A DNA stretch of 64,000 bases from Scenedesmus sp. ARA3 (lineage: Eukaryota; Chlorophyta; Chlorophyceae; Sphaeropleales; Scenedesmaceae), in contig RWJK01001635.1 in NCBI GenBank assembly GCA_004335835.1, positions 63,842 through 127,841 of the forward strand. The letters are read 5' to 3'. The stretch's first letter is position 1. Every line of letters begins with the position of its first letter. The translations under genes were made by a program, and so were the position numbers. Positions 1-53,513 of the stretch are shown here, piece by piece. Under the pieces are notes generated by a model. The model made no database searches. It saw only the letters and a list, made by a program, of their open reading frames with translations, and was not told the origin of the DNA.

Positions 1-1820
1 GTCAGCAAGTGAGTGATGTGTCTTATGTGAAGCGCTGGGTTCCTGCCTGAGCATGCTGTCGGCACTGTGGTGCTGACGACAGACCACCCGCCGATGAACG
101 AGTTTGTCAGCAAGTGAGTGGTTGGGTTTCATCTGAAGCACGGGGTGTGCGCTGTGCTGTTGCGGGGTGGCTGGGCTTGCGATCGGTCTGCTGCTGCGTG
201 CTGTTCTGAGCTGAGCCTGGCTGCTCTCTGCTGCGCAGGGCGCGTTGGCCAGGCCTGATCACCCCTGCTGCGCTGCGCTGTTTCGAGCTTTACACCGCTG
301 CAATTCGCTCTGACTCTGCTGGCATTAGTAATCAGCACACACTGAACTGTACCTAATTGCTGTTCTCCGCTGTGATTTCTGATCGTCTTCTGCTGTGCAG
401 GGCAAAGGGCCCTGGCCTGGTCAACCTTGCAGAGCGGCTGCTGGCGTACAGGCACCTTGCTCTCACACAGTATGCCCTCCTGTGCTGTGCTGTTGCAATC
501 TGCACTCTACTGCCGTCTGCCAGCCGTGTCTCTATGTGCACAGGGCGCAAGTCCCTGGCCTCGTCAGCTCTCCTGTGCTGCACTGCGATTAAAGCTGCAT
601 GCTGCTGCTGTCTGCTGCATGTTTCATGCACAGGGCAAAAGGCCCTGGCCTGGTCATTCCTGTTGATCGGCTGCTTGCGTACAGGAAGCCGGCTCTGGCA
701 AAGTATGCCCGGCTGTAAAGATGGACAGTCTACATGAATAATGCAAAGCTGCGCACCTTCAAGCAGGCCGGCTGTGCTGTGCTGTTCTGAGCTGCACTCT
801 GCTGCCCTCTGCCGGCCGTGTCTCTATGTGCAGGGCGCAAGGCACTGGCTTCATCAGCGCCCCTGTGCTGCGCTGCGCCTTTTTAAGCTGCATGCTATTG
901 CTGTCTGCTGCATGTTGTATCCACAGGGCGAAGGGCCCTGGCCTGGTCATCCCTGTTGAGCGGCTGCTGGCATACAGAGAGCTGGCTCTTGCCAAGTATG
1001 AACCATTGGATGCGCTGATTGACGAAGCGCAGCTGTGTGACGTGGTGGAATCAGTACTGCAGATGCCCGCACAGGTGAGGGGCCTAGTTGCTCATCAGCA
1101 TTGTAAGCTATTTGTTCTCTGGTTCTATGGTTATATGATCAGTGAATGTTTGAATCCACGGTTTGGTGTTTGCTGGATGTGCTGGTAGATGACGTGCAGC
1201 TGTGTATGTGGTGGAGGGATTCAGTGCTGCAGATGCGCACCAAAAGCCCGGTACAGAAAGCACAAGCATGCACGCTAAAGATGTTGTTGCTATGGCTTGA
1301 TGAACGGCTGCTGCTGCTGCTGCTGCTGCTGCTGCCGCGCCTTGTAGGAGGTGTACGAGCGGGGGCAGCAGGCACGCACCAACTTCTTGTATGAGAAGGC
1401 CGTGTTCATGGCGCGGATGCAGGTGAGGGGCTGCTGCTGCTGCTGTGTTACTTTTGTGTTACTTCCCATTCGAATTGGCTGCCAGGTCAGCGGGCACTGC
1501 TGCATGCAGTCTGGGCTACTACCATAGGCGTGCATGGCACCCTTGCCATCCGCAATGCGTAATGCTGCTGTGTCAGAATAAAGCTTTAGAGAAAAGAGCC
1601 AATATTTGCAGAACCTCTGGGCCTTCCTTGAACAGCTTAACACATCAACTGTTTTGGATCGTGCTGCTGCTGCTGCTGCTTGCAGGACCTGCGGGCTTTT
1701 CTGGAGCAGCGTGCGCAGGGCTTGCAGGGCTTTGAGCAGCGCTCGGGGCTGGGTGACGATGGAGGGCTGATGCAGCAGCGGCAGCTTTTAGAGGAGCAGC
1801 CCTCACTGCCGGCAGTGTAA
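1..1820 (+). CDS. Unidentified protein, 3' part of gene
   Basis: C-terminal part of a multi-exon gene whose 5' end lies outside the window. Exons that join in frame are about 50-113, 927-1074, 1348-1422 and 1686-1820 (stop TAA). The first junction is phase 2 and the next two are phase 0. The readable product includes TTDHPPMNEFVSK, then a stretch rich in Leu, Ala and acidic residues (LLAYRELALAKYEPLDALI), then YERGQQARTNFLYEK, and ends with a Gln/Leu-rich helical tail (LRAFLEQRAQGLQGFEQ). It looks mostly alpha-helical. I do not recognise the family and assign no function. The splice frames and the conserved look of the third exon argue that it is a real gene. Its introns carry several decayed copies of these exons (separate entry). 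The gene converges on the RING ligase gene downstream. Confidence 0.6.
395..1240 (+). repeat. Echo copies of exons 927-1074 of the first gene
   Basis: The intron between 113 and 927 holds repeated partial copies of the next exon. The segment reading CAGGGC(A/G)AA(A/G)GGCCCTGGCCTGGTCA recurs near 398 and 633, each followed by a copy of the CGGCTGCT(G)GCGTACAG stretch, and the functional version starts at 927. A weaker copy lies near 540-570. A further copy of the 3' half of the exon (the Asp-Glu-Ala-Gln-Leu-Cys region) lies at 1193-1240, inside the next intron. The copies have indels and stops, so they are intronic remnants rather than constitutive exons. Confidence 0.7.
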
Positions 1821-1986
1821 TCCAGCAGCTGAACTCAGGAACTTCCTTGCGGCGAGCCCACACCGCTGACTCAGCGTCGGACAGTGTAAGTCAGAAGCGT
1901 AGTTTCCTGTGCTGTGATGCAGCAGCGGCACGAGGGGCAGTCCCTGGAGGGGGAGGCCTCACTGCCGGCAGTGTGAAAACAGGCGT

Positions 1987-52255: not shown

Positions 52256-53513
52256 GGCAGCCTCAAAGGCAATGTGGCTGGCTAGCAGCAGCAGCAGCAG
52301 GTGCTGCAGCTGAGCCTGAGGATGCGCAGGGCAATGTGTATCGCAGGAAGGTCTATGAGGACCTCAAGCGCCAGGGCCTGCTGTGAAAGCCCAATGTGTT
52401 AGAAAGTGTGAGGCCTGCGGTGTCAGGCGCTGTTGCGAACAGCAGCAGCAGCAGCAGCAGGAATGTATATCATGGACCTGCAGGGCCAGGGCTTGCTGTG
52501 AGCCTGGCATGCGTCAGGCATTGCTGCTGTTGTTAGCAGGGATGCAGACAGCAGCAGCAGCAGCAGGAAGGTCTGCAAGGGATGCCAAGCGCCTGGGTAT
52601 GTTGTCAAGCTGGCAAGTGTGAGGCACTGTTGCTGTTTGCAACGGTGTTGTGGACAGCTGCAGCGGCAGCGTTACTAACACCGTGTTAGTGTACAAGCAC
52701 CTGAGCGCCAGCGCCTGCTGCTGTGCGGCGGAGCTTGCGGCAGTTCGGGGAGAGCAGCAGCAGCAGCAGCAGCAGCGGTACCTGCAGTAACAGCAGCAGC
52801 AGGGTGCAGCTGCTGCAGCCGGAGGGGCAGTGCCTGCAGCCAGAACCTTCCAACAGCCTGCGGAAGCAGCTGCGCCTGTTTTGCCACCTAGCCGCTAGCA
52901 ATCGGAAGGTGGGGTGCGGCGCCAACGGCAGCAACGGCTGCCCCGACAGCAGGGATTGCAGCGATGTCTTGATGCTTCAGTTTGTGCGGGCTGCAGTTTT
53001 GCCTCCTGCAGCAGTCTCGGTTGACAGTTGGGTGGAAGTCAGGTGCAATTGCTTGCACACCTGGTGGAGTCTGGTCAAGCAAGGTCCACGGCATGCTTGT
53101 GCCAGCATGTGCAACATGCGGCAGCTGGTGAGGCGTGCAGGTCTGCGGCAGTGTTATGGCTCGGGCACCAGTGCACACTGGCAACCGACGTGCGGCTGCT
53201 TCTTTGCGAGGAAAATGTCTACTGTAAACGCCTTCGCTGGAGGTGACAGACTGAGGATGCAGCCCGCCTTGCCCTGGCTCACGATGCTGTTGGAGCTTGC
53301 CCCTCAAGAAAGCCTTGCATGAACAGCACGAATATGCAGCGATGAAACGTGCACACAAGTTGCGCAGCACAGTCAGCCCATCTGCTTGGCTGCAACACAA
53401 GATGCATGTGTCATGAAAAGCCAAGGCATGCCTGGGCCTAACTGCGCAGCCCCCACACAAATGCACCTGCCTACTAAACCAGAGACAAGCTACTAGCTGG
53501 GCAAACACCACGC
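52256..53513. other. Convergent 3' region of SF3A3 and dynein
   Basis: Begins with a copy of the SF3A3 C-terminal coding end (EDAQGNVYRRKVYEDLKRQGLL reading, here only the second half counts) at about 52313-52385, then weaker copies near 52455-52500 and 52560-52620 built around (CAG)n tracts. An open + frame at 52723-53322 (199 codons) is Ser/Cys-rich without motifs, and I treat it as non-coding. Probably the two 3' UTRs. Confidence 0.5.

Follow-up and report, generated by a model that had tools for sequence, protein, structure and literature searches.

In tandemly duplicated mutually exclusive exons, the exon copies adjoin the original and the protein sequence is largely conserved. In the potato RdRp gene, a tandem duplication spanning the boundary of an intron and an exon has been described as the origin of an intron; the account of this event cites the models of Rogers and Hellsten, as well as the work of Gao and Lynch (2009) on internal gene duplication, meaning duplication within a gene and its consequences for introns (PMC4974935). 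In Chlamydomonas and Volvox, introns are richest in tandem repeats, with more of them near intron-exon junctions (PMC3887541). Introners, as outlined in PMC9860276, are dispersed elements linked to rapid intron change. In Tetradesmus obliquus, introns are reported to average 462 bp and the coding share to be 15.7%, compared to 26 to 44% in three relatives with smaller genomes (figures from the genome comparison in PMC5966456).

We analyzed a window of 64,000 nucleotides, the whole stretch of DNA under study, whose source genome is T. obliquus or a very close relative. An initial annotation had proposed that genes in this window carry partial, diverged copies of exon edges with flanking intron beside the real exons. 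We refer to these copies as echoes and found 81 of them in the adjacent introns of three genes with exons fixed by independent proteins. Like the potato RdRp duplication, echoes are tandem copies of an intron tail plus an exon head; unlike that single intron-creating event, as the relevant portion of PMC4974935 presents it, they number up to 36 per gene, occur on donor sides too, and leave no new intron evident in the examined proteins. In contrast to internal gene duplications, as cited there, they copy half-exons, lie within introns only, occur many times per exon, and keep their splice sites. The leading intron motifs of Chlamydomonas and Volvox named in PMC3887541 are short (for example, dinucleotide GT/AC and a 17-nt motif), whereas the unit here is an exon edge. 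Echoes share with introners, in the outline given by PMC9860276, the rapid change of introns, but those of SF3A3 matched no other locus among the 40 candidates scored out of 937. In an open-access library, outside which most subscription journals fall, none of the papers listed described such echoes. The half-exon limit, the retained splice sites, and the conservation of exon parts over intron parts are new observations.

Near-repeat pairs in the window and other stretches

We compared 23 sequences: the window, L022 (which carries the CCT-alpha gene and lies outside the window), and 21 other stretches. Self-comparison of the window revealed 101 near pairs (offset of <3 kb) spanning positions 398 to 52386, in agreement with the annotated echo range of approximately 395 to 52385; the interval from 54 to 64 kb contained no pairs. 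When a complexity filter was applied and offsets were limited to 1 kb, there were 93 pairs, which covered 13,359 of the 64,000 bases. The Markov control, consisting of one first-order resample for each of the 23 sequences, gave 0 pairs. Bases within such pairs made up 59% of L022, 21% of the window, and 6.4% of the remaining 21 stretches (11,446/178,313). Offsets among all 222 pairs of these sequences fell most often in the class of 120 to 140 bp (38 pairs), and 107 pairs lay at 80 to 180 bp, in line with the annotated spacing of mostly 100 to 180 bp. The pairs form tandem arrays, that is, same-orientation neighboring copies of one unit, with homology over the whole unit in only 57/222.

Real exons were set by independent proteins in CCT-alpha (P0121) and in two genes of the window, SF3A3 (P0001) and beta-mannosidase (P0241; its per-position count of 663/1330 reflects an alignment shift, not identity). 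De novo gene-finder exons served for the dynein gene and the other genes that had no outside protein, with L003 and L008 left out. Besides good exons, the gene finder predicted false ones at many echoes, and gene prediction is affected in this way. Intron bases lying in pairs amounted to 58% in CCT-alpha, 58% in SF3A3, and 23% in beta-mannosidase. These large shares uphold the suggestion that echoes are a source of intron length, and in the affected genes they seem to be a main one. If half-exon copying is indeed a main source of the intron length of T. obliquus, intron growth, the choice between near-identical splice sites, and the recruitment of mini-exons could be watched in one organism, and the many intact-looking sites left unused near true ones would constitute a natural test of exon definition.

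Echoes are half-exon copies carrying one splice site

The SF3A3 gene (44117..52255, + strand), named by its match to 5z56 chain w, has 13 real exons, stop included, in the spliced alignment of P0001: 44117-44147, 44578-44720, 45406-45497, 46308-46448, 46995-47132, 47458-47584, and 48119-48236 (exons 1 to 7) and 49162-49261, 49930-50017, 50544-50651, 50981-51180, 51365-51509, and 52142-52255 (exons 8 to 13). A candidate 14th exon (52347-52386) was ruled out, as P0001 ends in exon 13. All echoes listed here lie on the + strand. Acceptor echoes accompany exon 2 (44430..44500, 95.8% identity across 71 bp), exon 3 (two, 45123..45322), exon 4 (three, 45870..46239), exon 6 (two, 47205..47375), exon 7 (an array with a unit of about 111 bp, 47873..48052), exon 8 (three, 48684..49093), exon 9 (49717..49868), exon 10 (50376..50464), exon 11 (50824..50948), and exon 13 (three, 51623..52051). 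The exon 13 array (51640-52202; 3.7 copies, 91%) has units of about 151 bp that are still alignable whole, as are those of CCT-alpha exons 3, 4, and 10. Donor echoes were found for exon 3 (45577..45656), exon 4 (two, 46522..46775), exon 6 (47715..47764), exon 7 (48291..48372; P0001 carries the real copy, LETFDSVGELETMG, instead), exon 8 (two, 49370..49549), and exon 9 (50107..50236). Downstream of exon 11, a copy from the exon interior lacks the donor edge (51279..51327), and the end of the last exon (source 52181-52255) is copied with its stop codon at 52312..52386.

The beta-mannosidase gene (22290..32176, - strand), which has two PAN domains, contains 17 real exons by P0241 and 16 echoes. 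Its arrays, also on the - strand, include one on the acceptor side of exon 25091-25219 (25152..25471), two spanning the donor (27049..27399) and acceptor (27422..27857, 175-bp unit) edges of exon 27302-27494, and one at the end of the last exon (21925..22372, 118-bp unit). The annotated list of affected genes was longer. It stood for these two genes, and pairs were also present in five others whose exons are not protein fixed: an unknown gene (398..1000, no strand assigned; segments repeated 233, 292, and 526 bp apart), a RING gene (3908..5281, - strand; several copies of one RING-coding segment, for example, 3927-4001 and 5145-5219, which are 100% identical), a coiled-coil gene (9800-9975, 11277-11469, and 13815-14633) and a DUF4079 gene (17977-19296), both by self-comparison, and a SnoaL gene pair (32763..37543, - strand; local echoes at 32763-33246, 36666-36854, and 37119-37543 plus gene-to-gene similarity). 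TAF8 was not confirmed: no pair above threshold fell in the 2-kb bins at 40 to 44 kb, and a looser list held one 24-bp pair (42458-42561).

Of the copies in the three protein-fixed genes, 47 lie upstream, 44 of them with the acceptor edge, and 34 lie downstream, 26 of them with the donor edge. The layout first proposed, with acceptor copies upstream and donor copies downstream, holds in these exactly known genes apart from one odd SF3A3 copy (44870-44951), which lies upstream yet has a donor edge. No copy holds both edges (0/81), and a complete second exon was never seen in the three genes, unlike the situation in mutually exclusive exons. At most about half of the exon is included in each copy, as 41/42 joints lay at or below 0.58. 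With a survival and detection filter whose limits we chose ourselves, 9.4/42 joints would be expected above 0.6, and 1 was seen. In the 13 exons copied on both flanks, the two joints nearly meet; the standard deviation of the gap between them stood out against 20,000 shuffles and against a uniform null (P = 0.0002), but a per-exon closeness test gave a P value of only 0.11. On the intron side, acceptor copies keep at least 28 bp (next, 47) and donor copies at least 25 bp (next, 42), with no sharp rule. Up to 5 copies occur per exon side and up to 36 per gene; those of CCT-alpha exon 10 lie at steady offsets of 175, 357, 539, 704, and 897. The arrays are not minisatellites with a noncoding unit unrelated to exon edges, since 40/42 in the three genes touch an exon.

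Decay with distance, another feature of the initial annotation, describes some arrays, such as that of SF3A3 exon 13 (97.5, 87.0, and 85.0% outwards), but not others, for example, neither the downstream copies of CCT-alpha exon 10 (86.7, 85.8, 87.2, 93.3, and 93.3%) nor SF3A3 exon 3, in which the nearer copy has 84.6% and the farther copy 94.1% identity. Folding at exon joints did not convincingly indicate a hairpin (mean percentile, 0.62; P = 0.058). The motifs GCAGC/GCTGC were found near 52% of joints versus 36% of inner exon positions, which is suggestive only; an earlier count that included nonindependent copies gave 52 to 55% versus 28 to 38%.

Spliced-type proteins follow the real exons

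P0121 matches the echo-free exons of CCT-alpha at 473/475 positions, and P0001 (514 amino acids) is identical to those of SF3A3 at 511/514 positions in a spliced alignment with no residue deleted. Echo residues were absent from the spliced-type proteins P0121, P0122, and P0001. Only 25/81 offsets were divisible by 3; because offsets are not frame preserving, echo inclusion would often break the frame. The annotated T. obliquus isoform P0123, which comes from another assembly record (a 4.4-Mb contig), contains a 9-residue repeat corresponding to 27 nt of the L022 echo at 8668-8808, with AG before and GT after. An echo-specific base that creates AG|TGCTGG in L022 accounts for P0123. Since the isoform carries this copy-specific base, at least that one echo is real DNA.

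A proposed model of local exon-edge duplication

We infer a birth mechanism, a selection filter, a part played by exon definition, and exchange as the homogenizing force. Taken together as local exon-edge duplication, with selection as a filter and with exchange through exon halves holding the copies similar, this account has in our judgment a slightly better than even chance of being correct. Segments of mostly 100 to 180 bp across an exon edge would duplicate in place; the copy still connected to the remainder of the exon would stay exon, and the other would turn intronic. Selection would remove duplications that change the message, either inside an exon or of an entire exon together with its two splice sites, so that each survivor would be a half-exon copy with a single splice site. 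The spliceosome would skip an echo because a copy with a single site and no more than about half of the exon would fail exon definition. Arrays would expand and contract when exon halves, often the sole alike stretch, pair during unequal exchange or template switching, and such exchange would keep the exon half and the splice site similar as the intron spacers drift apart. Against this account, a young tandem copy should match over the whole unit, yet just 6 of 68 pairs with at least 88% identity are alike across the entire unit.

A doubtful alternative places a preferred point of breakage or stalling near the middle of the alga's exons, from which repair or slippage would copy outwards, the head half to the left and the tail half to the right. 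Half-exons with live sites would then be a reservoir for mini-exons, as in P0123, and would set intron length gene by gene.

Splice sites and exon parts of echoes are conserved

Echoes of internal exons retained AG in 38/44 acceptor copies and GT in 23/26 donor copies, the dinucleotide being gone in only 9/70. In 36/70 copies, the flank 8 to 70 bp from the edge lacked detectable homology by a gapped measure, and AG or GT was still there in 32 of these 36; an ungapped measure (44/70 flanks lost) overstates the loss, and the gapped measure is preferred. The donor copy of CCT-alpha exon 8 is identical over 73 bp (68 exon and 5 intron bases), and the flank beyond it lacks detectable homology, another point against the duplication account. 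Median scores were 6.06 for echo and 7.01 for real acceptors and 6.32 for echo and 6.26 for real donors, on matrices trained on gene-finder output that itself contained echoes; other intron AG and GT dinucleotides scored far lower (0.75 and 1.00). Donor position +5 was retained in 79% and +4 in 48%, indicating that retention tracks function rather than nearness to the exon, which stands against local duplication with exchange.

Exon parts of the copies diverge less than intron parts. In CCT-alpha, the difference between echo and exon is 3.8% at the first, 4.6% at the second, and 18.4% at the third codon position. Overall, positions 1 and 2 differ at 3.8 to 8.6%, with third positions (15 to 18%) and flanks more diverged; in these percentages, the codon phase of SF3A3 exons 7 and 11 is off by one or two bases. 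CCT-alpha changes comprised 124 synonymous, 58 nonsynonymous, and 2 stop changes (P = 2e-11, a value that is too small since the copies are nonindependent), and synonymous changes exceeded the free-echo expectation in both genes tested (CCT-alpha and SF3A3). Where an array held at least 2 echoes, the real copy alone had 3, 3, and 20 changes at positions 1, 2, and 3, nearly all of them at third positions, and echo-unique changes numbered 34, 32, and 71, a far weaker third-position bias. Two of 66 copies were left out of the codon-position, unique-change, and synonymous counts. Neutral decay after tandem duplication does not explain the retained sites together with the conservation of exon parts, and the synonymous excess in CCT-alpha is not readily given by simple exchange.

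Retained sites, in copies with homology-free flanks as well, near-real scores on the echo-trained matrix, the P0123 repeat, and the synonymous excess in both genes are all consistent with functional echoes, the sites being selected as splicing decoys, as sources of poison exons or mini-exons, or as alternative sites, with some echoes not being relics. We nevertheless consider this unlikely: no copy has both edges, P0121, P0122, and P0001 use none, offsets are out of frame, 12 of the 15 gap events listed for exon parts have lengths not divisible by 3, and constraint at the amino acid level without translation lacks an obvious reason.

The rarity of AG/GT loss and the graded divergence of codon positions and flanks would also follow if break repair at an exon copied the other allele of a diverged homologous chromosome and joined the ends, so that allelic divergence was there from the start; the CCT-alpha exon 11 echo, with 11 synonymous, 2 nonsynonymous, and 1 stop-type change, fits this as well. 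The proposal is improbable, as no second locus for CCT-alpha, whether diverged or near-identical, was found in the assembly, only three of the 120 relatives listed were at 98 to 100% with no other above 90%, SF3A3 requires little extra divergence, and each array would require several alleles. Likewise, no second near-identical SF3A3 locus was found; with 40 of 937 candidates scored, matches of the SF3A3 region elsewhere were confined to a repeat of 68 bp around 48460 and four stretches of triplet repeats (query 901-962, 1101-1167, 1497-1700, and 3373-3421).

Half-exon copies running outwards from nearly meeting joints are what an assembler would produce by laying allelic or strain pieces end to end, and N was present in four fetched stretches. 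The window and L022 contain no N, the exact match beside the joint is <15 bp in 57/81 echoes (too short for assembly-graph overlaps), up to 5 copies occur per side with left and right uneven, and the AG|TGCTGG base specific to an echo explains a protein from a separate 4.4-Mb-contig record; an artefact is thus very unlikely. Least likely of all is that new introns are born when AGGT-bearing segments duplicate, or when the duplication is resolved inside the exon, as described for potato RdRp, where the duplication likewise ran across the boundary of an intron and an exon (PMC4974935): AG|GT is available at the matching exon position for 12/70 copies and missing for 58/70, and the spliced-type proteins fit undivided exons, so the annotated AGGT route is not the rule, although an exact AG|GT join would leave the protein unchanged and be invisible here.

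Bias to exon edges and patchiness between genes

Pairs touching an exon numbered 34/45 in CCT-alpha (19.5 ± 3.2 for shifted pairs), 30/31 in SF3A3 (17.9 ± 2.5), and 13/14 in beta-mannosidase (10.4 ± 1.6, with a maximum of 14 over 300 shifts). Arrays holding no edge were 5/42, versus 44 to 59% of random units in a layout with copies partly removed; a rough hand estimate with fuller removal and detectability lowers the expectation to near 9 to 10/42. The annotated bias toward splice-site segments is therefore strong against the present layout in CCT-alpha and SF3A3 and weak in beta-mannosidase, and it shrinks to 5 versus 9 to 10 after correction. It is not established, because the copies themselves lengthened the introns and intron-only copies decay on both sides and vanish sooner. 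A true bias toward exon edges is possible.

The distribution between genes is patchy, which also stands against local exon-edge duplication with exchange as the best explanation. A dynein heavy chain-like gene beside SF3A3 (52423..63751, - strand; name read from the translation) is echo free, with echoes on 0/56 exon sides of 29 de novo predicted exons, and eight other genes of our choosing had echoes on 19/160 exon sides. "Pervasive," the word first applied to the echoes, is thus too strong genome-wide. Heterogeneity was marked among 12 genes (chi-square P = 8e-20), three from the window and nine handpicked, CCT-alpha among the latter for its echoes. An FNR-like gene had 0/8 echoed sides and CCT-alpha 17/22 (gene names from translations); expression is a doubtful cause of the patchiness, since these two genes do not share one trend.

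Reference proteins and identification of echoes

The assembly that holds the window comprises 1,567 contigs and 87.27 Mb. CCT-alpha, spliced by hand from another contig, had a listed identity of 100% to both T. obliquus OEZ86_010546 and an "lgn" protein; in a spliced alignment of the "lgn" protein with the CCT-alpha DNA, 473 of 475 positions agreed. For the window's beta-mannosidase, a T. obliquus record was listed with 96% identity across 76% of the query. On these sequence matches, the genome was taken as that of Tetradesmus obliquus or of a very closely related alga. The "lgn" records, presumably Logan contigs, are 1,853 and 2,373 bp long, which is shorter than the genes, and they would thus derive from spliced RNA.

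Independent proteins were aligned to the DNA with splice signals so that echoes (partial exon copies in neighbouring introns) would not be taken as exons. This approach fixed 12 exons in CCT-alpha (part of the gene, in L022, a stretch of that other contig), 13 in SF3A3, and 17 in beta-mannosidase. With all real exons masked, each exon plus 100 bp of flank was searched against the adjacent introns. We detected 19 upstream and 17 downstream echoes in CCT-alpha, 19 and 10 in SF3A3, and 9 and 7 in beta-mannosidase. The detailed claims rest on these three genes, of which CCT-alpha was picked for its echoes and the other two lie within a window that was itself selected.

Echoes are dense but patchy

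Self-comparison of all 251,913 bases examined revealed 222 near pairs, 93 of them in the window, while a Markov resample of the same sequences gave none. The copies that the initial annotation placed next to exons in the window were thereby confirmed in part. The share of bases within near pairs was 59% for L022, 21% for the window, and 6.4% for the remaining 21 stretches pooled. L022 is not a fair sample, as it was chosen after a CCT family search gave overlapping exon hits; the CCT-alpha protein search returned 37 matches, 26 of them on the contig of L022, against 12 exons. Among protein-fixed exons, echoes were present on 17 of 22 sides in CCT-alpha, 18 of 24 in SF3A3, and 12 of 32 in beta-mannosidase. 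Eight other genes, named from their translations and read with predicted exons, had echoes on 19 of 160 sides (FNR-like, 0/8; RPL15-like, 0/10; ARC6-like, 0/20; SCD-like, 1/18; CHD-like, 3/44; EDC4-like, 4/18; JmjC-like, 6/22; STE20-like, 5/20). Seven of the 21 stretches beyond the window and L022 supplied these genes, which were picked as readable and as spanning low to high pair counts that had already been seen; 19/160 is therefore no unbiased rate, and the fairer measure is the 6.4% of bases. A dynein heavy chain-like gene (window 52423-63751) directly adjoins the echo-rich SF3A3; its introns are short (median, 196 bp), and none of its 56 predicted exon sides has an echo.

The initial annotation also proposed that the copies favor segments containing splice sites. 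Compared with the present gene layout, the pairs were biased to exon edges in two of the three genes. When copies were partly removed from the layout, a crude reconstruction, 5 of 42 arrays lacked an edge, compared to about half expected; but purely intronic copies fade faster, and the bias is possible rather than established.

Splice sites and exon halves outlast the intron flank

Splice sites were scored in 70 of 81 copies, omitting 11 that stop short of the edge or lie at the ends of last exons. AG was retained in 38 of 44 acceptor echoes, at the position projected from the exon, and GT in 23 of 29 donor echoes (23 of 26 without three copies at last-exon ends). The intron flank had no homology in 36 of the 70 copies (gapped local score against 200 shuffles). 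Still, AG or GT was retained in 32 of these 36, and the identity of their exon part was 75.6 to 100% (median, 88.6%). Divergence totals from 64 of 66 copies gave 318 mismatches over 3,458 sites and 24 gap positions in exon parts, and 445 mismatches over 2,548 sites and 199 gap positions in aligned intron parts.

Echoes hold little more than half of an exon at most. For 42 array-level joints (the inner ends of echoes within the exon) in the three genes, the exon share had a median of 0.43 and a maximum of 0.64. Only one exceeded 0.6, compared to 9.4 expected under a null requiring 25 bp of exon and 55 bp of intron at acceptors or 10 bp at donors. Thirteen exons have echoes on both sides; the part left uncopied in them measured 14.8 ± 15 bp. 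Shuffled joints gave a standard deviation near 38, none of 20,000 shuffles was as tight, and a uniform-joint null gave a P of 0.0002; a per-exon test of the closeness of the two joints was weaker (P = 0.11).

A proposed exchange between echoes and exons

Plain decay of a duplicated edge would erase the splice site along with the exon half and the intron flank, the flank about twice as fast. Contrary to this, half of the copies have lost the flank but retain an exon half that is largely similar. The most parsimonious extra step would be recurrent exchange between echo and exon, limited to the stretch still alike.

Differences at codon positions 1, 2, and 3 were 0.038, 0.046, and 0.184 in CCT-alpha and 0.086, 0.055, and 0.151 in SF3A3. 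The synonymous share was 0.67 versus 0.43 expected in CCT-alpha and 0.54 versus 0.39 in SF3A3, under a null of constrained exon and free echo; shared history among the echoes of an exon makes the P values (2e-11 and 3e-4) too small. Echo-unique changes were even over the codon positions in SF3A3 (14, 10, and 13), as in free sequence, and uneven in CCT-alpha (20, 22, and 58). Exons taking sequence back from clean echoes could build synonymous differences beyond the simple null. Copying of echoes from a diverged allele would also fit the third-position pattern in CCT-alpha, although we rank it third.

Exchange alone does not account for the difference between donor positions +5, retained in 79%, and +4, retained in 48%. 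This difference, the site scores, and one CCT-alpha isoform are the best arguments for the explanation ranked second, that selection holds some echo splice sites. The CCT-alpha proteins P0121 and P0122 and the SF3A3 protein P0001 contain every exon once and no echo. In P0123, another annotated isoform of OEZ86_010546, VLESGSVVP is repeated. The third donor echo of CCT-alpha exon 10 (L022 8668-8808) carries CGA in place of the exon's CGC, creating an AG ahead of TGCTGGAGAGCGGCAGCGTGGTGCCAG, which is followed by GTGCGG; this 27-nt piece (L022 8723-8749) translates in phase as VLESGSVVP. Since the P0123 repeat equals this piece with its echo-specific base, the protein suggests that a second assembly also contains an echo with CGA, on a contig of a listed 4.4 Mb, and that the splice sites of this echo are at least annotated as used. 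Separately, at L022 3798-3928 and 3991-4061, CCT-alpha exon 5 encodes CTR, compared to CAR in P0121 and P0122, and its donor echo reads CAR and so retains the common variant.

Other features of the window

The neighbouring SnoaL genes (window 32763-38335) are duplicates, with up to 95.7% identity over 92 bp. Both carry local echoes of their own, and the gene duplication could serve as a reference for dating these. An SF3A3 intron contains a repeat of about 68 bp (window 48460-48527), a short interspersed element that recurs once in the window, near 38106-38181. Among the best 40 of 937 candidates scored, it was found on at least 31 other contigs at 90 to 96% identity and on at least 2 more at 86%. 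Near the DUF4079 gene, a 27-bp unit is repeated 8.6 times at 96% (window 20686-20917) in one open frame of LYCLGLFTG repeats. The beta-mannosidase has a repetitive TPGAYA/TPGGYA region (window 28156-28653) and two PAN domains behind the N-terminal domain (window 28708-29442). The T. obliquus beta-mannosidase P0241 has both the PAN domains and the TPGAYA/TPGGYA region, and in P0242 the repeat region is shorter.
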